Part shown: one piece after another, positions 5,620-36,910 of the stretch | How positions within the stretch are numbered: the stretch's first letter is position 1 | How the letters are laid out: every line of letters begins with the position of its first letter | Source of the DNA: Pirellulales bacterium | GTDB lineage: Bacteria; Planctomycetota; Planctomycetia; Pirellulales; JAICIG01 | DNA: 64,000 nt | Reading direction: 5' to 3' | NCBI GenBank assembly: GCA_035533075.1 | Contig: DATLUO010000185.1 | Location: 1-64,000, forward strand | Made by a program: the position numbers and the translations under genes | The notes under the pieces: generated by a model | Told to the model about the DNA's origin: nothing | Database searches by the model: none | The model's input: the letters and a program-made list of their open reading frames with translations, nothing else

Positions 5620-8600
5620 ATGATTGGTCAATCGCTGCCATCGTCTCCCCTATTTCGTGCTCCGCCGGAGGCGCAAACCATCGCCGACGTGCTGCGCTGG
5701 CGCGGCGAGCACCAGCCTGATGAGATTGCCTTCACCTTTCTGGCCGACGGCGAGGACGACAAGCAGCCACTCTCTTATGCCGAACTCGACCGGCGGGCGC
5801 TGGCCATCGCCGCCGCGCTGATCGACGGCGGCGCGACCGGCAGCCGCGCGTTGCTGGTCTATGACTCGGGGCTGGATTACATCGCGGCCCTCTATGCTTG
5901 TCTTTATGCCGGCGTGATCGCCGTGCCGGTCTATCCGCCCGACCCTTTCCGCGTCGATCGCACGTTGCCTCGACTTCGCTCGATCGTCCACGATGCCGGT
6001 GCGAAGTGGCTCTTGGCGACGCAAGCCACGCTCGATTGGACGCGGCCCTTGTTTCAGCACGTCGCAGGTCTTGAATCGTCGCTGGCCACCGACCAGGTCG
6101 CCCAGGACAGCCCGCATGTTCTTCCCGCCGTCGCGCTGCCGGCCTTGGACCGCGGGCGACCGGCCTTGCTGCAATACACTTCCGGCTCGACGGGCGAACC
6201 GCGGGGCGTCACCATCACGCACGCCAACCTGATGGCCAATCTGGCGTCGATCCACGCCGCGGTCGATCGCGGAGACAACGTGGCGGTCCTTTGGCTGCCC
6301 GCCTACCACGACATGGGCCTGATCGGCGGCATCTTTCAGCCGGTCTACAGCGGACGGCGGAACGTGCTGATGTCGCCGATTTCGTTCATGCAGCGGCCGG
6401 TGCGCTGGCTGCAGGCCATTTCGCGACATCGGGGCACGATCACGGCGGCGCCGAATTTCGCTTACGACATCTGCCTGCGGAAAGTCACTGCCGAAGACCG
6501 CGCTCAGCTTGACTTGAGCAGCCTCCGCTTCGCTTTGAACGGGGCCGAAGTGGTGCGGCCGGAGACGCTCGACCGCTTTGCCGAGACGTTTGCCGCGTGC
6601 GGCTTTCGCCGGCGGGCCTTCTATCCCTGCTACGGGCTGGCGGAAGCGACGCTGATGGTGTCGGGCGGCTCCGACGTTGAGGATCCGATCGTGCGATCGT
6701 TTGCCGCCGCCGCGCTGGACCGCAAACGGGCCGTCGCCGCCGACGAAAACGACCGGCACGTGCGGCGCCTGGTCGGTTGCGGACGGCCCGTCGCCGGACA
6801 ACGAGTCGTGATCGTCGATCCGGAAACCCGTCAGCCGCTTGACGACGGACACGTCGGCGAAATCTGGGTCGCCGGCGACAGCATCGCCCAAAGCTATTGG
6901 AACCGCCCTGACGAGACCGCCGCCAGCTTCGGCGCCTCGCCGGCCGGCGAGCGTGAGGGCCGTTTTCTTCGCACGGGCGACCTCGGTTTCATCGACCAGG
7001 GCGAGTTGTTCGTCGCGGGAAGATTGAAAGAGCTGATTATCATTCACGGACGCAATCACTACCCCGACGACATCGAAGAGACCGTCAGTCGGACGCATCC
7101 GCTGCTGAAGAGCGACGGCGGCGCTGCGTTCGCCATCGAGGTCGGCGGCCAAGAGCGGCTGGCGATCGCGCAAGAGGTCGTCCGTCCGCGCAAGGCCGAC
7201 ACGCAGGCGCTGATCGATCGCATCCGCGCGCAGGTCGCCGAGGCACACGGCGTGGCACCGGCCGCCGTCGTGCTCATCCCGGCCGGCACGCTGGGCAAGA
7301 CCTCCAGCGGCAAGAAGCAGCGCCGCGGTTGCCGCGACCAGTTTATTTCGGGCAGTTTGCCGGTGATTGCCGAATGGCGTGACGAGCCGCTTCGTTGCGA
7401 CGGCGCGAGGCCGACGGCATCGGCGGTTGCGCCGCGAAACGAAACAGAACGAAGCCTGGCCGCTTTGTGGACTGAGGTGCTGGGGACGGAAGTGCTCGAC
7501 GTACACGCCAACTTTTTCGACCTCGGCGGTCAATCGCTGCTGGCCGGCCAGTTGGCCGCGCGCATCGAAGATGCATTCGCAGTGGACTTGCCGTTGCGAA
7601 CGCTTTTCTCGCGCCCGACCGTCGCCAGCCTGGCTGCCTGGCTCGATCAGCCGGACGAACAGCGGTCCGGCGATGTGCTGCCGCCTGTGACCTGCGCCGA
7701 CCGGTCGCAGCCGCTGCCGTTATCGAGATCGCAAGAGCAAATCTGGTTTCTGGAGCAGCTCGAAAGCGAGCCGCGATACAACCTGACGGCGTCAATCCGC
7801 CTGCGAGGTGCCCTGGACGTGCCGGCATTACGACGAAGCCTTGCGGCGGTGGTTGCCCGGCACGAGGCGCTGCGGACGCGCTTCCCTGTTTGCGACGGCC
7901 AGCCGCGGCAAATCGTTGCCCAGCGGCAGAACTCAGCGTTGGAAATCATCGACGGAACGACCGAACCCGAGGTTGCGGTGGCTGGGGCAGAGCCGCGCGA
8001 TGGATCTGGATTGCGCCTGACGCTCTGCCGCGGCGATGCCCCGGTAGCGCCACCACCGGGGCATCGCTGGCCGAGGGCGTCTTTGCAATGGCCTAGCCAA
8101 ACCCGGCCAGCTTCTGCCCCAGCCACCATCGATCGTGAGACGCCGGAATGGCGGCCGGCGAACGCGAAGTTCGATTTATCGGGCGGCCCTTTGTTGCGGA
8201 CCTCGCTACGACAGATAAGCGACGTGGAACACCGCTTGGTGATCGTGGCCCATCATCTGATCTGCGATGGCTGGTCGCTGGCGATCTTCCTCAAGGAGCT
8301 GGCGGAGCTTTATGCCGCGGACCTTGCCGGGCGGCCCGCCGCGCTGGACGAAGTGCTCTGGCACTATCCCGATTTTGCCGCCTGGCAGCAATCGTGCCTG
8401 GCGACGCCGCAAGTTGCCAAACAGATCGAGCATTGGAAAGATCGGCTGGACGGAGTGCAGCCGCTCGATCTGGCGACCGACCGTGTTCGTTCGGCGGAAG
8501 GCAAGTTCCGCGGAGCGGCGGTGAGTTGGACGGTGAGCGGCCGTCAGTCCGATGCGCTGTACGAATTGGCGCGTGGCGAGGGTGCCACGCCTTACATGGT

Positions 8601-15234: not shown

Positions 15235-15327
15235 TCTTGGGCCTTGGGTCTTGGGCCTTGGGGTCTCGAAACGAAAGCCGAACAACAATCGCCGTAACCC
15301 AAGACCTAAGACCCAAGACCTAAGACC
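15235..15327. repeat. heptamer-arm hairpin (CTTGGG[C/T] units)
   Basis: The left arm 15235-15263 is four tandem seven-base units TCTTGGG/CCTTGGG. The right arm 15298-15327 is the complementary heptamers CCCAAGA/CCTAAGA. About 34 bases separate them. Read from the minus strand it overlaps the end of hemG and supplies its stop codon. It may act as a terminator-like structure between hemG and the stress-protein gene. Confidence 0.8.
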
Positions 15328-16748
15328 TTCCCAATGCGCTCGGCCGCCTGCTCGCCGCTGTGGATGCAATTCGGCACCCCGACGCCATGATAGGCGTTGC
15401 CCGCTAAGGCCAGCGTGGGCCAGCGCTGGCAGTCGCGCTCGATTCGCTCGACGAGCTCGACGTGCCCAAGGTGATACTGCGGCATGCTCGCCGGCCAGCG
15501 GACGACCCGCGTCAACTCCGGCTCGCCTTGTGCGCCGATAAGCTCGCCCAACTCGGCCCTGGCCAAAGCGATCAGCTTGTCGTCGTCCAGATCGAGTTGT
15601 TCCTGTCGCTCGGCGCCGCCCAGAAACACTCGGATCAGCGCGCGGGCGTCCGGCGCGCGGCCGTCGAATTTGACGCTGCTGTAACTTGCCGCCAGAATGT
15701 GCCGCCGCTCCAACGACGGCACGACAAAGCCAAAACCATCCAGGCTCCGTTCAAACTGCTCTTGTCGATAGCCCAGGGCCACGATGACGCTGCCCGCATA
15801 AGGGATCTTTTTCAGCTCGCCGGCCAGTTCTTGATCGAAGCCTTCCAGAAGCTTCGCGGCGGCGGGCGCGGGCAGGGCCAGCACGATGGCCTCGAATTGC
15901 TCGACGCCCTCGGCCACCGACAGCAGCCATTTCCCGTCGTTCATCGCGAGTTTCGTGACGGCGGCACCCGTGCGAACGCAACCCTCCGGCAAACGGCTGG
16001 CGATGGCCCGCACGAGACTGCTCATGCCTTCGTGCGGAGCGACGAACAGCCCATAGCGGGCGCCGCTGGAGGCCGACGCATCGGCGCTGCGGCCGCGTTC
16101 CTGCCAGGCTGCCCGAATCAGGCTGCCATAGCGGCGTTCCATTTCGACAAACCTCGGCAACGCGGCCGCCATGCTCAGGCGTTCGGCGTCGGCCGTGTAA
16201 ATGCCGGCGACCAGCGGCTGCACGAGACGTTCAAACGCCTGGCGTCCCAATCGCCGCCGGGCGAACGAGGCCAGGCTCTCATCGCCCTTGCTTTTCCGCC
16301 GCGAAACGAGCAATTCGCCAAGCACGCGCAGCTTGCCGGGCCAGCTCAAAAGCGGCGACCGCACCACGGGCCAAAGCTGTCCGGGAGCCAGCAGATGAAA
16401 CCCGATCGGAACGGGCAACAGTCGCCCGTTGCGGACGACGAACGCCCGTCGCTGCGACTCGCGCGTCGGCAGCAACTCATCGGCCAGTCCCACGCGACGG
16501 CAAAGATCGACGCCCCAGGGAACATTGGTGATGAAGTTGTCGGCGCTCAGCTCCAGCAGGTAACCGTCGCGCCGCTGGGTTTCAAGCACGCCGCCCAAGC
16601 GATGGCCGGCCTCGAACAAAGTCACTTGCGACTGTGGGGCCAGCTCGGTCAGCCGATGCGCCGCGGCAAGTCCCGTGATGCCGCCGCCGACAAGAGCGAT
16701 GCGTGGAGCGTCAGAATTCAAGGCGGCAAGCGGTGTGCTGTCAGTCAT
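15306..16748 (-). CDS. hemG: oxygen-dependent protoporphyrinogen oxidase (HemY-type)
   Basis: 480 residues from ATG 16748. FAD-dependent oxidase of haem synthesis: protoporphyrinogen IX to protoporphyrin IX. The dinucleotide fold is at the N-terminus (IALVGGGITGLAAAHRL), followed by LELSADNFITNVPWGVDLC and, near the C-terminus, LALAGNAYHGVGVPNCIHSG, all typical of HemY-type PPO. The open frame extends 66 residues further upstream, but that part is translation of a family A palindrome, so I place the start at MTDSTPL. The last residues KVLGLGS and the stop are encoded by a heptamer repeat. It lies downstream of the HemD-HemE gene. Confidence 0.93.
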   Translation of the reverse strand: MTDSTPLAALNSDAPRIALVGGGITGLAAAHRLTELAPQSQVTLFEAGHRLGGVLETQRRDGYLLELSADNFITNVPWGVDLCRRVGLADELLPTRESQRRAFVVRNGRLLPVPIGFHLLAPGQLWPVVRSPLLSWPGKLRVLGELLVSRRKSKGDESLASFARRRLGRQAFERLVQPLVAGIYTADAERLSMAAALPRFVEMERRYGSLIRAAWQERGRSADASASSGARYGLFVAPHEGMSSLVRAIASRLPEGCVRTGAAVTKLAMNDGKWLLSVAEGVEQFEAIVLALPAPAAAKLLEGFDQELAGELKKIPYAGSVIVALGYRQEQFERSLDGFGFVVPSLERRHILAASYSSVKFDGRAPDARALIRVFLGGAERQEQLDLDDDKLIALARAELGELIGAQGEPELTRVVRWPASMPQYHLGHVELVERIERDCQRWPTLALAGNAYHGVGVPNCIHSGEQAAERIGKVLGLGS

Positions 16749-16766
16749 GCTATGAGGGACCAATGC

Positions 16767-16921
16767 GGTGGCTGGGGCAGAGCTTGGCCAGGTTGAGGTT
16801 GCTCCTTGATTCAGCTCGACGGCCAAGCGATGCCCCGGAACCGACGCACCGGGGCATCGCTTGGCCGTCACGCTGTGCAAAGGTGCTGACCGTTGCCCGG
16901 CCAAGCTCTGCCCCAGCCACC
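16767..16921. repeat. family A palindromic element in hemG leader
   Basis: 155 bases. The outer arms are perfect inverted repeats of about 23 bases beginning GGTGGCTGGGGCAGA. An inner perfect hairpin of about 20 bases carries GCGATGCCCCGG and CCGGGGCATCGC. It lies between the HemD-HemE stop and the hemG start, 18 bases from the hemG ATG, so any hemE-hemG mRNA would carry it as a nested stem-loop. Confidence 0.9.
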
Positions 16922-16968
16922 GCAACGGCGTTATTCTTCCGCGCATGCACTATGTACACCGCTGGCAA

Positions 16969-19466: not shown

Positions 19467-19620
19467 TGAGCTGCGTGCTGTTCTCGGTTTGCCACCAGCT
19501 TTAGAGATCGTCCTGCTTGCGGAAAAGATGGGCAAGTTCGTTTGTACGGCCGGAGGCCGTCGTAGCCGCGAAGCGGCGTGATTCATCAGCCCAGGGTGCA
19601 ACCCCGGGTGGACGTGCCCA
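19467..19620. other. short intergenic stretch, repeat-like, no HEPN gene
   Basis: The sequence contains palindromic words such as GGCCGGAGGCC and CCCAGGGTGCAACCCCGGG. No complete gene is seen. A frame running past the nucleotidyltransferase stop has no recognisable domain. Confidence 0.35.
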
Positions 19621-26400: not shown

Positions 26401-26418
26401 GATAAGGACGTCGCTTTC

Positions 26419-26573
26419 GGTGGCTGGGGCAGAAGCTGGCCGGGTCGCGGTAGTGCAGTCCCCAAGACGCCGTCGGCCAGCGATGCCCCGGTGGTGCTGC
26501 TGCCTGGGCATCGCTGGCCGCAGGGCGTGTTGGCAAATCCAGCCGAGCCCGGCCAGCTTCTGCCCCAGCCACC
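26419..26573. repeat. family A palindromic element between propeller gene and blaI
   Basis: 155 bases. The outer arms are perfect inverted repeats of about 26 bases beginning GGTGGCTGGGGCAGA. The inner hairpin is CGGCCAGCGATGCCC / GGGCATCGCTGGCCG. It fills most of the noncoding gap 26331-26696; apart from it, the family B half and the blaI leader I see nothing in that gap. Confidence 0.9.
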
Positions 26574-26696
26574 GATTTCTGCCCGCGTGAAGTAGGGTGC
26601 GATTTGCAACCGCTTGCGTTTCAGACGGGATGTCTTTATCATAGGACCGGATAAGCGTAGCGGGATGACTTGTTGGTATCTGAGGGAACTTTGTCC

Positions 26697-27104
26697 ATGG
26701 CGCGTGCGCCTCGAGATGTGACCGACGCCGAACTGGCGGTGCTGGAGGTGCTCTGGGACCGCGGCTCGGCCACGGTTCGGGAAATCGCCGAAAAGCTCTA
26801 TGCCGGTTCGAGCACCTCGCAGCACGCCACCGTGCAAAAGCTGCTGGAGCGGCTGGAAGCCAAGAAGTGCGTCCGCCGCGAGCGCGGCAATTGGCCGCAC
26901 ACGTTTGAACCGGCCCTCGATCGCGAGGAGCTGATCGGCCGCCGGCTGCAGCAAACCGCCGACCGGCTGTGCGAAGGTTCGGTGCAGCCGCTGTTGATGC
27001 ACCTGGTCAGGGCCGCGCGGCTTTCGGCCGAAGAACGCCGCGGCTTGCGAGATTTGCTCGATCAATTGGAGCTCAAGGGTGGGAAGCCGGTAAAGAAGCG
27101 GTAA
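26697..27104 (+). CDS. BlaI/MecI-type winged-helix repressor
   Basis: 135 residues from ATG 26697 with a GAGGGA ribosome site about 10 bases upstream; an in-frame TTG at 26670 is less likely. Winged-helix signature: VTDAELAVLEVLWDRGSATVREIAEKLY, then STSQHATVQKLLERLEAKK. In the family the repressor is inactivated by a membrane M56 protease. The neighbouring M56 gene appears broken, so this repressor may have lost its sensor. No operator could be identified with confidence. Confidence 0.93.
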   Translation: MARAPRDVTDAELAVLEVLWDRGSATVREIAEKLYAGSSTSQHATVQKLLERLEAKKCVRRERGNWPHTFEPALDREELIGRRLQQTADRLCEGSVQPLLMHLVRAARLSAEERRGLRDLLDQLELKGGKPVKKR

Positions 27105-27108
27105 ATAT

Positions 27109-27209
27109 AGGGTTCAGGGTTCAGGGTTCAGGGTTCAGGAGCTAGCGCTTCGTTTGGCACTTACGGTTTGGCGTTAGCTCCGCTTGCGCGTCGCTGAACC
27201 CTGAACCCT
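27109..27209. repeat. heptamer-arm hairpin (GGGTTCA units)
   Basis: The left arm 27109-27139 is GGGTTCA repeated about four times. The right arm 27194-27209 is the complement, CTGAACCCTGAACCCT. Between them an imperfect inner palindrome is closed by AGCTAGCGC / GCGTTAGCT. It lies between blaI and the M56 gene. Confidence 0.85.
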
Positions 27210-27221
27210 CGATGGTGTACC

Positions 27222-28744
27222 ATGACGTGGCTTGTTACGACGGGACTGACCAACGCCTTGCTGGCCTCGCGTCGGCACCGCGCGTGGCGGTGGTCGAAAG
27301 CGCCGTCTCGCCGATGCTGTGGGGCGCCGGCCGGAATGCTTGCCTGCTGTTCCCCGCGGAACTGACGCGCCGCATCGACGCGGCTGCGTGCGACGCGCTG
27401 CTGCTGCACGAGCTGGCCCACTACGCGCGCAGCGATTGGCTGGTCCGCCTGTTGGAACTGGCGGTGCAGGTGCTCTACTGGTGGCATCCGCTCGTGTGGT
27501 GGGCGCGGCGCGAGATCGAGGCCGCCGAAGAAGAGTGCTGCGACGCTTGGGTGATTCATCAGGTCCAATCGCGGCGACGATATGCCGAGGCCCTGCTGAC
27601 GACGCTCGATTTTCTCTGCGAGCCGCTGCAGCCCTTGCCTCCGGCGGCCTGCGGACTGGGTGCGGTGCCGCTCTTGCGGCGGCGCTTGACGCAGATTATA
27701 TGCGGCGAGGTGGCGATTCAACCCTCGCGATGGGCCCGCGCGCTCGTTCTGACTGGGGCGGCGGTCGTACTTCCGCTTGGCCCGGCATTCGTCGGGCCGC
27801 AGCACGAAGCCTTGGCAGGTACATCTGTAGGGAACGCCCTCCGTGGCGTTCCGCGCGGCGGGACCGGCGCAAATCCCAACGAGGCGGAACGCCACAGGGC
27901 CCAGAGGGCGCCCCGTTCCCTACAGAGCCCGGTCCGCGCAAAGGACATAGCTCCGACATCGTCCAGCGGACCACGGCCAGCCTCGTGGTTTGTCGCTCGC
28001 GACACGTCGCCGCGGGTCGGCGCGGTGGTCTACGCCACGGCGGTTTCGCCCGATGGCCGCTACAAGCTGCAGGCCCGCACCGGCCATCGTGCCGCATTGG
28101 TCGACGTGGAGTCGGAAAAGTCGGTCGACCTGAGCACGTATCGCATCGTCTCGGCGTCGTTCTCGCCCGACGGCCGGTTTCTGGCGACGGCGCAGGAAGA
28201 CGAAAGCGTGGTGCGTCTTTGGGACTGCAAAACGGCCGTCGTCCGGTCGCTGCTCAAGGGGAGCGAGTCGGCGCTGGTATCGGTCGCCTTTGCCCCTGAC
28301 GGCGCGCGGGTGGCGGCCGGCGCGGCCGATGGCAGCGTGCTGGTTTGGAACATGGCTGATGAGGAAGTCGTAGCTCGATTGCTCCTGCACGAGGCGCCGG
28401 TGAGTTGTTTGCGGTGGACGAAACAGAGCGATCGTTTGGCGATCGCCTTGGGCACATGGTTGGACCGCGAGCTCTCGTCGCTCATCGTCTGGCGGCCGGC
28501 CGACGGCCGCGTCAGTGAAAACGTGTCGCTCGACAATCCGGCGGGCGCCATCGACTGGCTCACCGACCACAAGCTGATCGTGGCCGATTGGGGCGGCGAG
28601 GCCCGCGTGTGCGATCTGCGTTCGGGCCTATCGGTCGAAAGGCTCTGGCTGGGCAAAGATTTGGTTTCGGCTGCCGCCTTCTCGGCCGACTGTCCTTTGC
28701 TGCCGCGTTGGCAGGCCGCAAGATTCGGTGAAGGAGGCGATTGA
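27222..28744 (+). pseudogene. broken M56 (BlaR1-like) peptidase with WD40 tail
   Basis: ATG 27222 encodes MTWLVTTGLTNALLAS, the usual first helix of planctomycete M56 proteins. The rest of the protein (APRVAVVESAVSPMLWGAGR, HELAHYARSDW with zinc motif HExxH, EEECCDAWVI) is in another frame, and the intervening helices are missing. I infer an internal deletion with frameshift near 27268. The intact downstream frame runs from 27212 and has 510 codons. Residues about 270-500 of that frame are WD40-like (FSPDGRFLATAQEDESVVRLWD). A family C repeat lies in the linker. The C-terminus also ends abruptly. Normally this protease would sense a signal and release BlaI repression. Confidence 0.75.
27825..27925. 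repeat. family C palindromic element inside M56-WD40 frame
   Basis: About 101 bases, from CTGTAGGGAACGCCC to CGTTCCCTACAG, with inner GTGGCGTTCCGC / GCGGAACGCCAC. It is read in frame as an extra segment (SVGNALRGVPRGG and following) between the transmembrane region and the WD40 part. Confidence 0.85.
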
Positions 28745-28788: not shown

Positions 28789-28866
28789 GTAGGGTGGAAA
28801 AAGCGAGCTTGCGAGCGCCGGCCCACCATTGGCGACGTCGATCTCGGTGGGCCGGCGCTCGCAAGC
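28789..28866. repeat. family B palindromic element
   Basis: Left arm GTAGGGTGGAAAAAGCGAGC to GGCCCACC, 18-base loop, then right arm GGTGGGCCGGCGCTCGCAAGC. It lies in the noncoding gap 28745-29016 between the broken M56 gene and the caspase-like gene. I see no gene in that gap. Confidence 0.85.
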
Positions 28867-35330: not shown

Positions 35331-35334
<4 letters not shown>

Positions 35335-35474
35335 GGTGGGACCAGCGAGCTTGCGAGCGCCGGCCCACCATCGCCGCAATTTTGGATTTTGGATTTTGGA
35401 TTTTGGATTCCGCCAATCCAAAATCCAAAATCGTGGTGGGCCGGCGCTCGCAAGCTTCGCTGGTCCCACCCTAC
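35331..35474. repeat. family B palindrome with heptamer hairpin in its loop
   Basis: The 40-base left arm (starting GTAGGGTGGGACCAGC) and the 41-base right arm (ending GCTGGTCCCACCCTAC) match except for one extra T. The loop 35379-35432 is itself a hairpin with four TTTTGGA heptamers against AATCCAAAATCCAAAATC. The rest of the gap to 35646 holds nothing I recognise. Confidence 0.92.
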
Positions 35475-36669: not shown

Positions 36670-36703
36670 GGCCCTTTCATTCGTCGATTGATGAATGGCA
36701 GGC

Positions 36704-36759
36704 GGTGGCTGGGGCAGAGCTTGGCCGCTACCTTCAGAACACGCTCTGCCCTAGCCACC
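36704..36759. repeat. family A short (internally deleted) copy
   Basis: 56 bases: GGTGGCTGGGGCAGAGCTTG, a short centre, then GCTCTGCCCTAGCCACC with one mismatch. The inner hairpin of full copies is absent. It lies 34 bases after the desaturase stop; the rest of 36670-36921 is the leader of the next gene. Confidence 0.85.
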
Positions 36760-36910
36760 GCAGGAATCTTGGCGATCCATCGATCATCAGGACCACGACC
36801 TCGCCCACGTTGACTTTTTGCGCCACACTACGGTAAAATCCGATTCATAAAGAATCGTTGATGGATGGCGAGGCTTGCTCATCCGGGGTCTGCGTTTGCG
36901 AACCAATAAA

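Follow-up and report, generated by a model that had tools for sequence, protein, structure and literature searches.

Tandem G-rich heptamers have been described in Xanthomonas (GGGAATC) and Nostoc (GGGGA(C/T)T) (Rehm et al. 2015, PMC4692102), and that report gives 70 convergent GGGAATC pairs for Xcc and 75 for Xac, quadruplex folding with a preference for four units, and variation of length and sequence between the two Xanthomonas genomes in repeats that have no known function; it also cites the idea that 7 nt is the stretch of DNA gripped by a polymerase. The heptamer arrays that we describe here resemble those repeats in being spread genome-wide, mostly in gene gaps, with two to many units, in forming convergent inverted pairs, in varying between relatives and in having no known function. 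They differ in several respects: the published repeats use one word per genome whereas here there are 15 recurrent words, with unlike arms under one polarity; most arrays here are without a G3 word or have fewer than four units; arrays are nested in REP loops; and words at one site are replaced by octads and nonads. The original prediction for our locus knew of no description of a paired inverted arrangement with varied units. Since convergent pairs had been published for Xanthomonas, the arrangement itself is not new. Heptamer repeats in bacteria have been noted for years without a mechanism.

TAACTGA heptamers in Beggiatoaceae and cyanobacteria (MacGregor 2015, PMC4679880) are, like ours, common to distant groups without an evident transfer route and change in 7-nt steps between close strains, but they are direct repeats with a single inverted case, lie mostly just upstream of start codons and use one word. 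REP/GTAG palindromes and BIMEs, of which GTAG REPs are present in Planctomycetes (PMC3733652), are likewise many, dispersed and located in gene gaps, and one of our hairpins lies inside a palindrome that opens with GTAG; REP stems, however, are not made of tandem words, and the heptad arms here have no GTAG tag of their own. Mammalian interstitial telomeric repeats, inserted at breaks, as a rule with deletion and in-register microhomology (PMC2246262), are also short G-rich arrays without systematic target duplication, but they consist of one telomerase-templated hexamer, are unpaired and depend on a eukaryotic enzyme. DRT10 (PMC12632851) synthesises bacterial tandem-repeat DNA with a short fixed unit; the repeat is 9 nt, protein-primed, non-chromosomal and used for defence, and the reverse transcriptase family RVT_1 was not detected in some of our array-rich genomes. 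As for MITEs, we saw no target duplication, and related copies were absent from this genome but present in the genomes CSMAG_2275 and CSMAG_2310. A literature search that had most subscription journals outside its reach turned up no account of hairpins with heptad arms in Planctomycetes or Wenzhouxiangella, and none of word replacement at one site or on polarity with unlike arms.

The window (the whole 64,000-nucleotide stretch of DNA analysed) contains all three of the heptamer-armed hairpins predicted for it. In hairpin 1 the 5' arm (15235..15262, +) is four heptads [TC]CTTGGG in two alternating spellings (TCTTGGGCCTTGGG x2) and the 3' arm (15297..15328, -) is 4.6 heptads ACCCAAG/ACCTAAG; the arms are 86% complementary over 28 nt. 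Hairpin 2 fits flush between two reading frames: its 5' arm, (AGGGTTC)4AGG at 27109..27139 (+), begins 5 bases past the stop of a Penicillinase_R frame (26718-27104), and a Peptidase_M56 frame starts at about 27212, directly after the 3' arm of 2.3 complementary CTGAACC units (27194..27209, -). Its loop holds an inner hairpin (27138..27181; GGAGCTAGCGC / GCGTTAGCTCC). Hairpin 3 has 4.4 units of ATTTTGG (35379..35409, +) facing 2.6 units of AATCCAA (35415..35432, -) and is enclosed by a REP-like palindrome whose left arm (35331..35370, +) begins GTAGGGTGGG and whose right arm lies at 35434..35474 (-). This outer palindrome starts with GTAG, a tag that is lacking from hairpins 1 and 2; the same REP-like palindrome occurs at 28807..28866 with an 18-nt loop and no heptads. 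We simulated the window 100 times with a first-order model, and all runs together yielded a single period-7 tandem that had its reverse complement close by, compared with four such arm entries, from two perfect hairpins, in the actual sequence. Single-stranded DNA folding gave z-scores of -4.3, -7.7 and -18.3 for hairpins 1, 2 and 3. An Rfam search gave no match at the hairpins. The prediction of about four units was accurate for one arm, with the other arm having 2.3 to 4.6 units; it had made no mention of the palindrome around hairpin 3.

In the BlaR1-like Peptidase_M56 frame next to hairpin 2 (27212-28744, +) the family match covers only positions 158-270 of 296, the frame is fused to WD40-like sequence, and an in-frame ATG at 27222 opens into a different frame; the front part of this gene may have been lost.

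Further loci elsewhere in the genome, which had been anticipated, proved abundant. The pattern GGGTTCAGGGTTCA gave 793 matches in the 8,541,942-base genome and 2 when run backwards as a control. We took period statistics from 100 stretches (1,802,583 bases of the 8.54 Mb), a sample made up of the window's own contig, hit-list contigs C11, C12, C17, C18, C21, C28 and C29 (chosen for GGGTTCAGGGTTCA matches), C267 (chosen for a match) and others picked by number or continuing from those, with many stretches being the first 20 kb of a contig; an all-N stretch (L057) was excluded from the period, word, gene-setting and later counts. We counted 143 perfect tandem runs (at least 14 identities) of period 7, and none of the other periods from 2 to 13 exceeded 5; periods 14 and 15 gave 15 and 14 runs. 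A degenerate criterion gave 142 for period 7 and no more than 6 each for periods 4-6 and 8-12. The idea that the period is shared while the words vary was therefore borne out: the 234 perfect arrays of at least 17 nt, to which the counts of words, units and array ends refer, use 40 words, 15 of them two or more times (GGGTTCA 71, GGATTTT 53, GGGATGA 16, GGCGTCA 14, GCAAATT 13, GGGGTTC 11, GGTTAGT 7, and others). Array ends are partly phase-fixed, as GGGTTCA arrays open with AGGGTTC in 36 of 71 cases and GGATTTT arrays open with GATTTTG in 35 of 53 and close with TTGGATT in 39 of 53.

That such arrays are artefacts of assembly has practically no probability in our estimation. The genome is a draft of 296 contigs. 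Of 89 contig ends checked, 8 have an array within 60 bp, where 0.008 would be expected per end; long arrays thus do break the assembly, and array lengths are minimum values. However, the same structures occur in independent assemblies of several groups, including that of Wenzhouxiangella limi, which is recorded as a strain and not as a MAG, and hairpins occupy conserved junctions in most species of one genus.

We also considered whether quadruplex folding by four G-tracts is the reason that arrays are kept. No word is more frequent than GGGTTCA (71/234), and there is precedent in the folding and four-unit preference reported for GGGAATC repeats (PMC4692102). In this genome neither the four-unit preference nor the G3 tract in the unit holds: by hand count of the array list a GGG-containing word is found in 112 of 234 arrays, and among GGGTTCA arrays whole-unit counts of 3 (30/71) and 4 (17/71) are most usual, arrays below 17 nt being uncounted, with many carrying fewer than four G-tracts. 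Furthermore, GGATTTT, GCAAATT and the octads and nonads found in relatives have no GGG, and at one junction (upstream of a thiolase gene, see below) GGG words have been replaced by nonads with the hairpin kept. With under half of the arrays carrying a G3 word, we rejected quadruplex formation as the common feature, and as an explanation for the arrays we hold it to be very unlikely.

Merging arrays that lie within 200 bases of one another gave 142 clusters, of which 85 consist of one array each and 41 contain both polarities, so that convergent inverted pairs are found at part of the loci. All 41 two-armed clusters have the G-rich arm 5' and the C-rich arm 3', and the reversed order was never seen. 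Reversed order is, by contrast, common between neighbouring arrays separated by 200 to 6000 bases (16 pairs, versus 4 inward), and the polarity rule is thus a property of the element. In 23 of the 41 clusters both arms have the same outermost word (10,000 shuffles gave a mean of 10.4 and a maximum of 21), and in 18 the words are unlike, although 4 of these 18 differ only as GGGTTCA versus GGGGTTC. Arms are therefore alike beyond chance, yet unlike arms also obey the polarity. Flanking direct repeats of at least 4 nt, as a sign of target duplication, were found at 7 of 41 clusters and at 140 of 820 control placements, which is no excess.

A strict polarity with unlike arms could arise if the hairpins were scars of break repair, in which broken 3' ends are extended with G-rich words (from an array or an RNA) and then joined. 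Such end addition would account for G-rich words pointing inward from both sides in every two-armed cluster and for the 18 clusters with unlike arms, and it also predicts the lack of target duplication and loops that are unrelated from one hairpin to the next. On the other hand, the outer words agree far more often than independent ends would allow, and the fixed start phase of GGGTTCA arrays is unexpected if ends prime anywhere. Moreover RVT_1 was not detected in four genomes rich in GGGTTCA (G042, G056, G066 and G050).

Loops were compared among 28 hairpins of this genome with loops of at least 12 nt, and only 1 of 378 pairs, itself a REP copy, beat five shuffles. Loop sequence is unrelated from one hairpin to another in this genome, which speaks against the copying of one element here, as had been proposed. 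The proposal does not extend to some other genomes: 10 of 15 loop pairs in CSMAG_2275 and 6 of 15 in CSMAG_2310 score above shuffles, with related loops recurring from site to site, and Wenzhouxiangella gave five such pairs, at most three of them independent as L157 and L249 are probably one locus, so that copying does occur in those genomes. In CSMAG_2275 the GGGTTCA hairpin is embedded in a longer repeated sequence, often near contig ends (L154, L163, L165, L170, L185), and in L185 the loop is inverted relative to its flanks when compared with L154.

The recurring loops of the two CSMAG genomes raise the possibility that the hairpins are non-autonomous MITE- or REP-like palindromes moved by a transposase, their arms having been multiplied later by slippage. 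Composites of REP and heptad elements with like junction bases, the fixed end phases of arrays and the gain of a hairpin beside mgtE in W. limi (described below) are all consistent with mobility. We nevertheless regard it as unlikely in view of the absence of target duplication, the unrelated loops of the present genome, the unlike arms and the occurrence of different words at one site. In addition, Y1_Tnp, the sole transposase family searched, was not detected in the GGGTTCA-rich genomes G005, G041, G056 and G066. Overall, Y1_Tnp was found in 10 of 14 rich and 9 of 15 poor genomes (with 12 matches in this genome) and RVT_1 in 10 of 14 rich and 3 of 15 poor genomes, where rich and poor are judged on GGGTTCA alone and poor genomes may carry other words. 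A Y1_Tnp REP transposase or an RVT_1 reverse transcriptase as the common maker was rejected, each having gone undetected in some rich genomes.

Of 39 genomes searched, counting the present one, 6 contain three consecutive GGGTTCA units: there are 496 matches in the present genome, 38 in G001 of the same family, 26 in G005, and 1 or 2 in each of the remaining three. The GGATTTT pattern was found in 3 of 39. A scan of a genome collection, in which records near this genome may be missing, returned 32 stretches with GGGTTCA hairpins, from Pirellulales MAGs, Wenzhouxiangella, other Gammaproteobacteria MAGs, Lentisphaerae, Verrucomicrobia, Phycisphaerae and one further bacterium. A two-unit GGGTTCA pattern was present in 24 of 30 Wenzhouxiangella genomes.

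With regard to gene setting, a home-made gene caller applied to the first 1.07 Mb of the sample placed 52 of 91 clusters in co-directional gaps, 14 in divergent gaps, 8 in convergent gaps, 10 within genes and 7 at edges, while gene gaps as a whole were 523 co-directional, 133 divergent and 128 convergent. Many elements sit flush between a stop and the following start. A role as transcription terminators was rejected, as there was no excess between convergent genes (8 clusters; 128 such gaps). Within the same 1.07 Mb there are 30 REP-like pairs, with a loop of 10-21 nt in 17, a 49-nt loop in one and an insert of 65-112 nt in 12. Nine of the 12 long inserts are heptad hairpins and three are hairpins of GGAG/GAGA-rich runs, all, by reading, with the G-rich arm on the left. 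The three that fill REP loops without a 7-letter unit lie at L019 ~3985, L025 ~1935 and L049 ~3131.

Arrays also occur within coding sequence. A Ser/Thr kinase gene carries arrays at three places in frame, one of them within the kinase domain, and the Pfam domain match is split in two stretches. Similarly, the Cas1 of this genome contains about 70 residues with heptad arrays, in frame, at a place where its best outside relative has a short linker. In the Cas1 gene (L047 1538-1600, -) a stretch of about 23 bases, the GCGGCGCGGCGTTTGACGAC region, flanks a GGGTTCA array on both sides. An empty-site comparison at a gyrB junction gave nothing, other genera being too diverged there.

Wenzhouxiangella allowed single junctions to be followed across species. 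At the 3' end of mgtE an array is present in W. limi alone among 19 loci compared (weaker or partial matches, L271-L281, were left out), and the other 18 have an array-free, mostly short gap followed by what appears to be the same next gene. Relative to the best match (G058, 84%), the last mgtE codons of W. limi are gone and the stop now falls within the array start, and the right flank restarts at CGAACCCA, which is found in G058 and G043 and contains the complement of GGGTTC. This is a gain at one site in one species, without target duplication. It is also where break repair finds further support: some deletion is predicted, and W. limi lost mgtE codons and has GAACCC microhomology on the right, deletion with in-register microhomology being the rule for interstitial telomeric repeats (PMC2246262). 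However, this is the single resolved empty site, and many words would need many templates. We consider break-repair scars quite unlikely as an explanation, and somewhat less probable again the wider proposition that several phyla mend some breaks in the fashion of telomeres, adding G-rich words to both 3' ends and then joining them, with polarity, unlike arms and lack of target duplication as the signature. Should end addition lie behind the polarity, it would amount to a new outcome of break repair for bacteria.

At the 3' end of ppsA, facing a gene that we take from its sequence to be oligoribonuclease, 11 of 27 loci (classes assigned by reading) carry tandem-armed hairpins. The words are heptads (GGGTTCA, GGGTTAC, AAGTGTG in three genomes, GGAGTCA), octads (GGTTAGCT in two; TTCGTTNN) or nonads (NNCACGGAA in two). 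The remaining loci comprise 10 with a short tandem-free gap, 2 with an insert of about 650 bases, 1 plain palindrome, 2 where gene order is lost and 1 that ends. The 650-base insert, found in the related species G039 and G058 (L225, L227) where others carry hairpins, may be a toxin-antitoxin pair of the MazEF kind, which it resembles.

Upstream of the thiolase gene a tandem-armed hairpin is present in 20 of 25 species loci (15 by a lag test, 5 by eye); of the others, one is cut by a contig end past the first arm, one is a plain palindrome, one a remnant, and two distant species have nothing. Here too the words are heptads (GGGTTCA, GGTTTCA, GGGTTCC/GGTTTCC/GGTTTAC, GGNAGAC, an AGAGGG type) or nonads (CACGGAANN, CACGAAGNN), and inside every species the two arms match each other. 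Folding of the gap was below shuffles at 21 of 24 loci (z -1.2 to -4.5; G061, cut by a contig end, was not included). With ten word labels placed on a tree built from the ends of three genes, no fewer than 14 changes are required (for shuffled labels, 17.7 on average and 14 at minimum), and the sisters G056 and G076 (support 99) carry heptads and nonads. G074, G067, G056 and G072 each have different words at different sites. Unit number differs among G039, G041 and G058 with similar flanks, and relatives thus vary in unit number, as foreseen, and even in word. The proposed unit length of seven is not strict, as octads and nonads take the same sites in relatives.

The thiolase gap flanks often change along with the word, and change in place is therefore not separable from exchange. 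Similar flanks surround some words in separate clades (G043 and the G040 group), which makes whole-gap exchange a likely part of word change. The observations at this junction suggest that the lasting feature is shape rather than sequence. A polarity that holds with unlike arms, together with a hairpin that outlasts the replacement of its letters, tells the sequence as signal apart from the fold as signal, and junctions of the thiolase type provide a natural allele series in a genus with a named strain.

We favor, with a probability of roughly 0.45, the possibility that these are stem-loops maintained by slippage, arm-to-arm copying and allele exchange, and that they form a large class of tandem-armed gene-gap palindromes. 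The three hairpins of the window would be members of this class, in which each arm repeats a single word a few times and the word is almost always 7 letters long. In this scenario strand slippage would multiply a word inside one arm, and a nascent strand that folds back would copy the opposite arm, so that the word passes across. Quasipalindrome correction, in which a folded-back strand copies the opposite arm, is an established process. The source of new words would be either other loci of this kind, through templated copying, or relatives, through exchange of the whole gap, and the stem-loop may persist between genes since it is tolerated or useful in the transcript whatever its letters, as has been proposed for REP elements. 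Consistent with maintained stem-loops are (i) the excess of period 7; (ii) the 23 of 41 clusters with like arms; (iii) the thiolase and ppsA junctions; (iv) the changes in unit number and (v) the flush fits between genes. Counting against them, 18 of the 19 species at mgtE are free of a hairpin, as are the 10 of 27 ppsA loci with a short tandem-free gap. Arm-to-arm copying alone does not fit the 18 clusters with unlike outer words, a role in the transcript cannot be general given that 10 of 91 clusters lie inside genes, and neither slippage nor fold-back copying explains the strict polarity or the preference for 7.

Two other features of the window were noted. A second long inverted-repeat family, with segments GGTGGCTGGGGCAGA and GATGCCCCGG in common, is present at 16764-16924, 26417-26575, 36702-36761 and 8019-8081. 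Rfam also gave a match to the Acido-Lenti-1 RNA family at 19564-19608 (-), with a score of 39.6 bits against a gathering threshold of 37.
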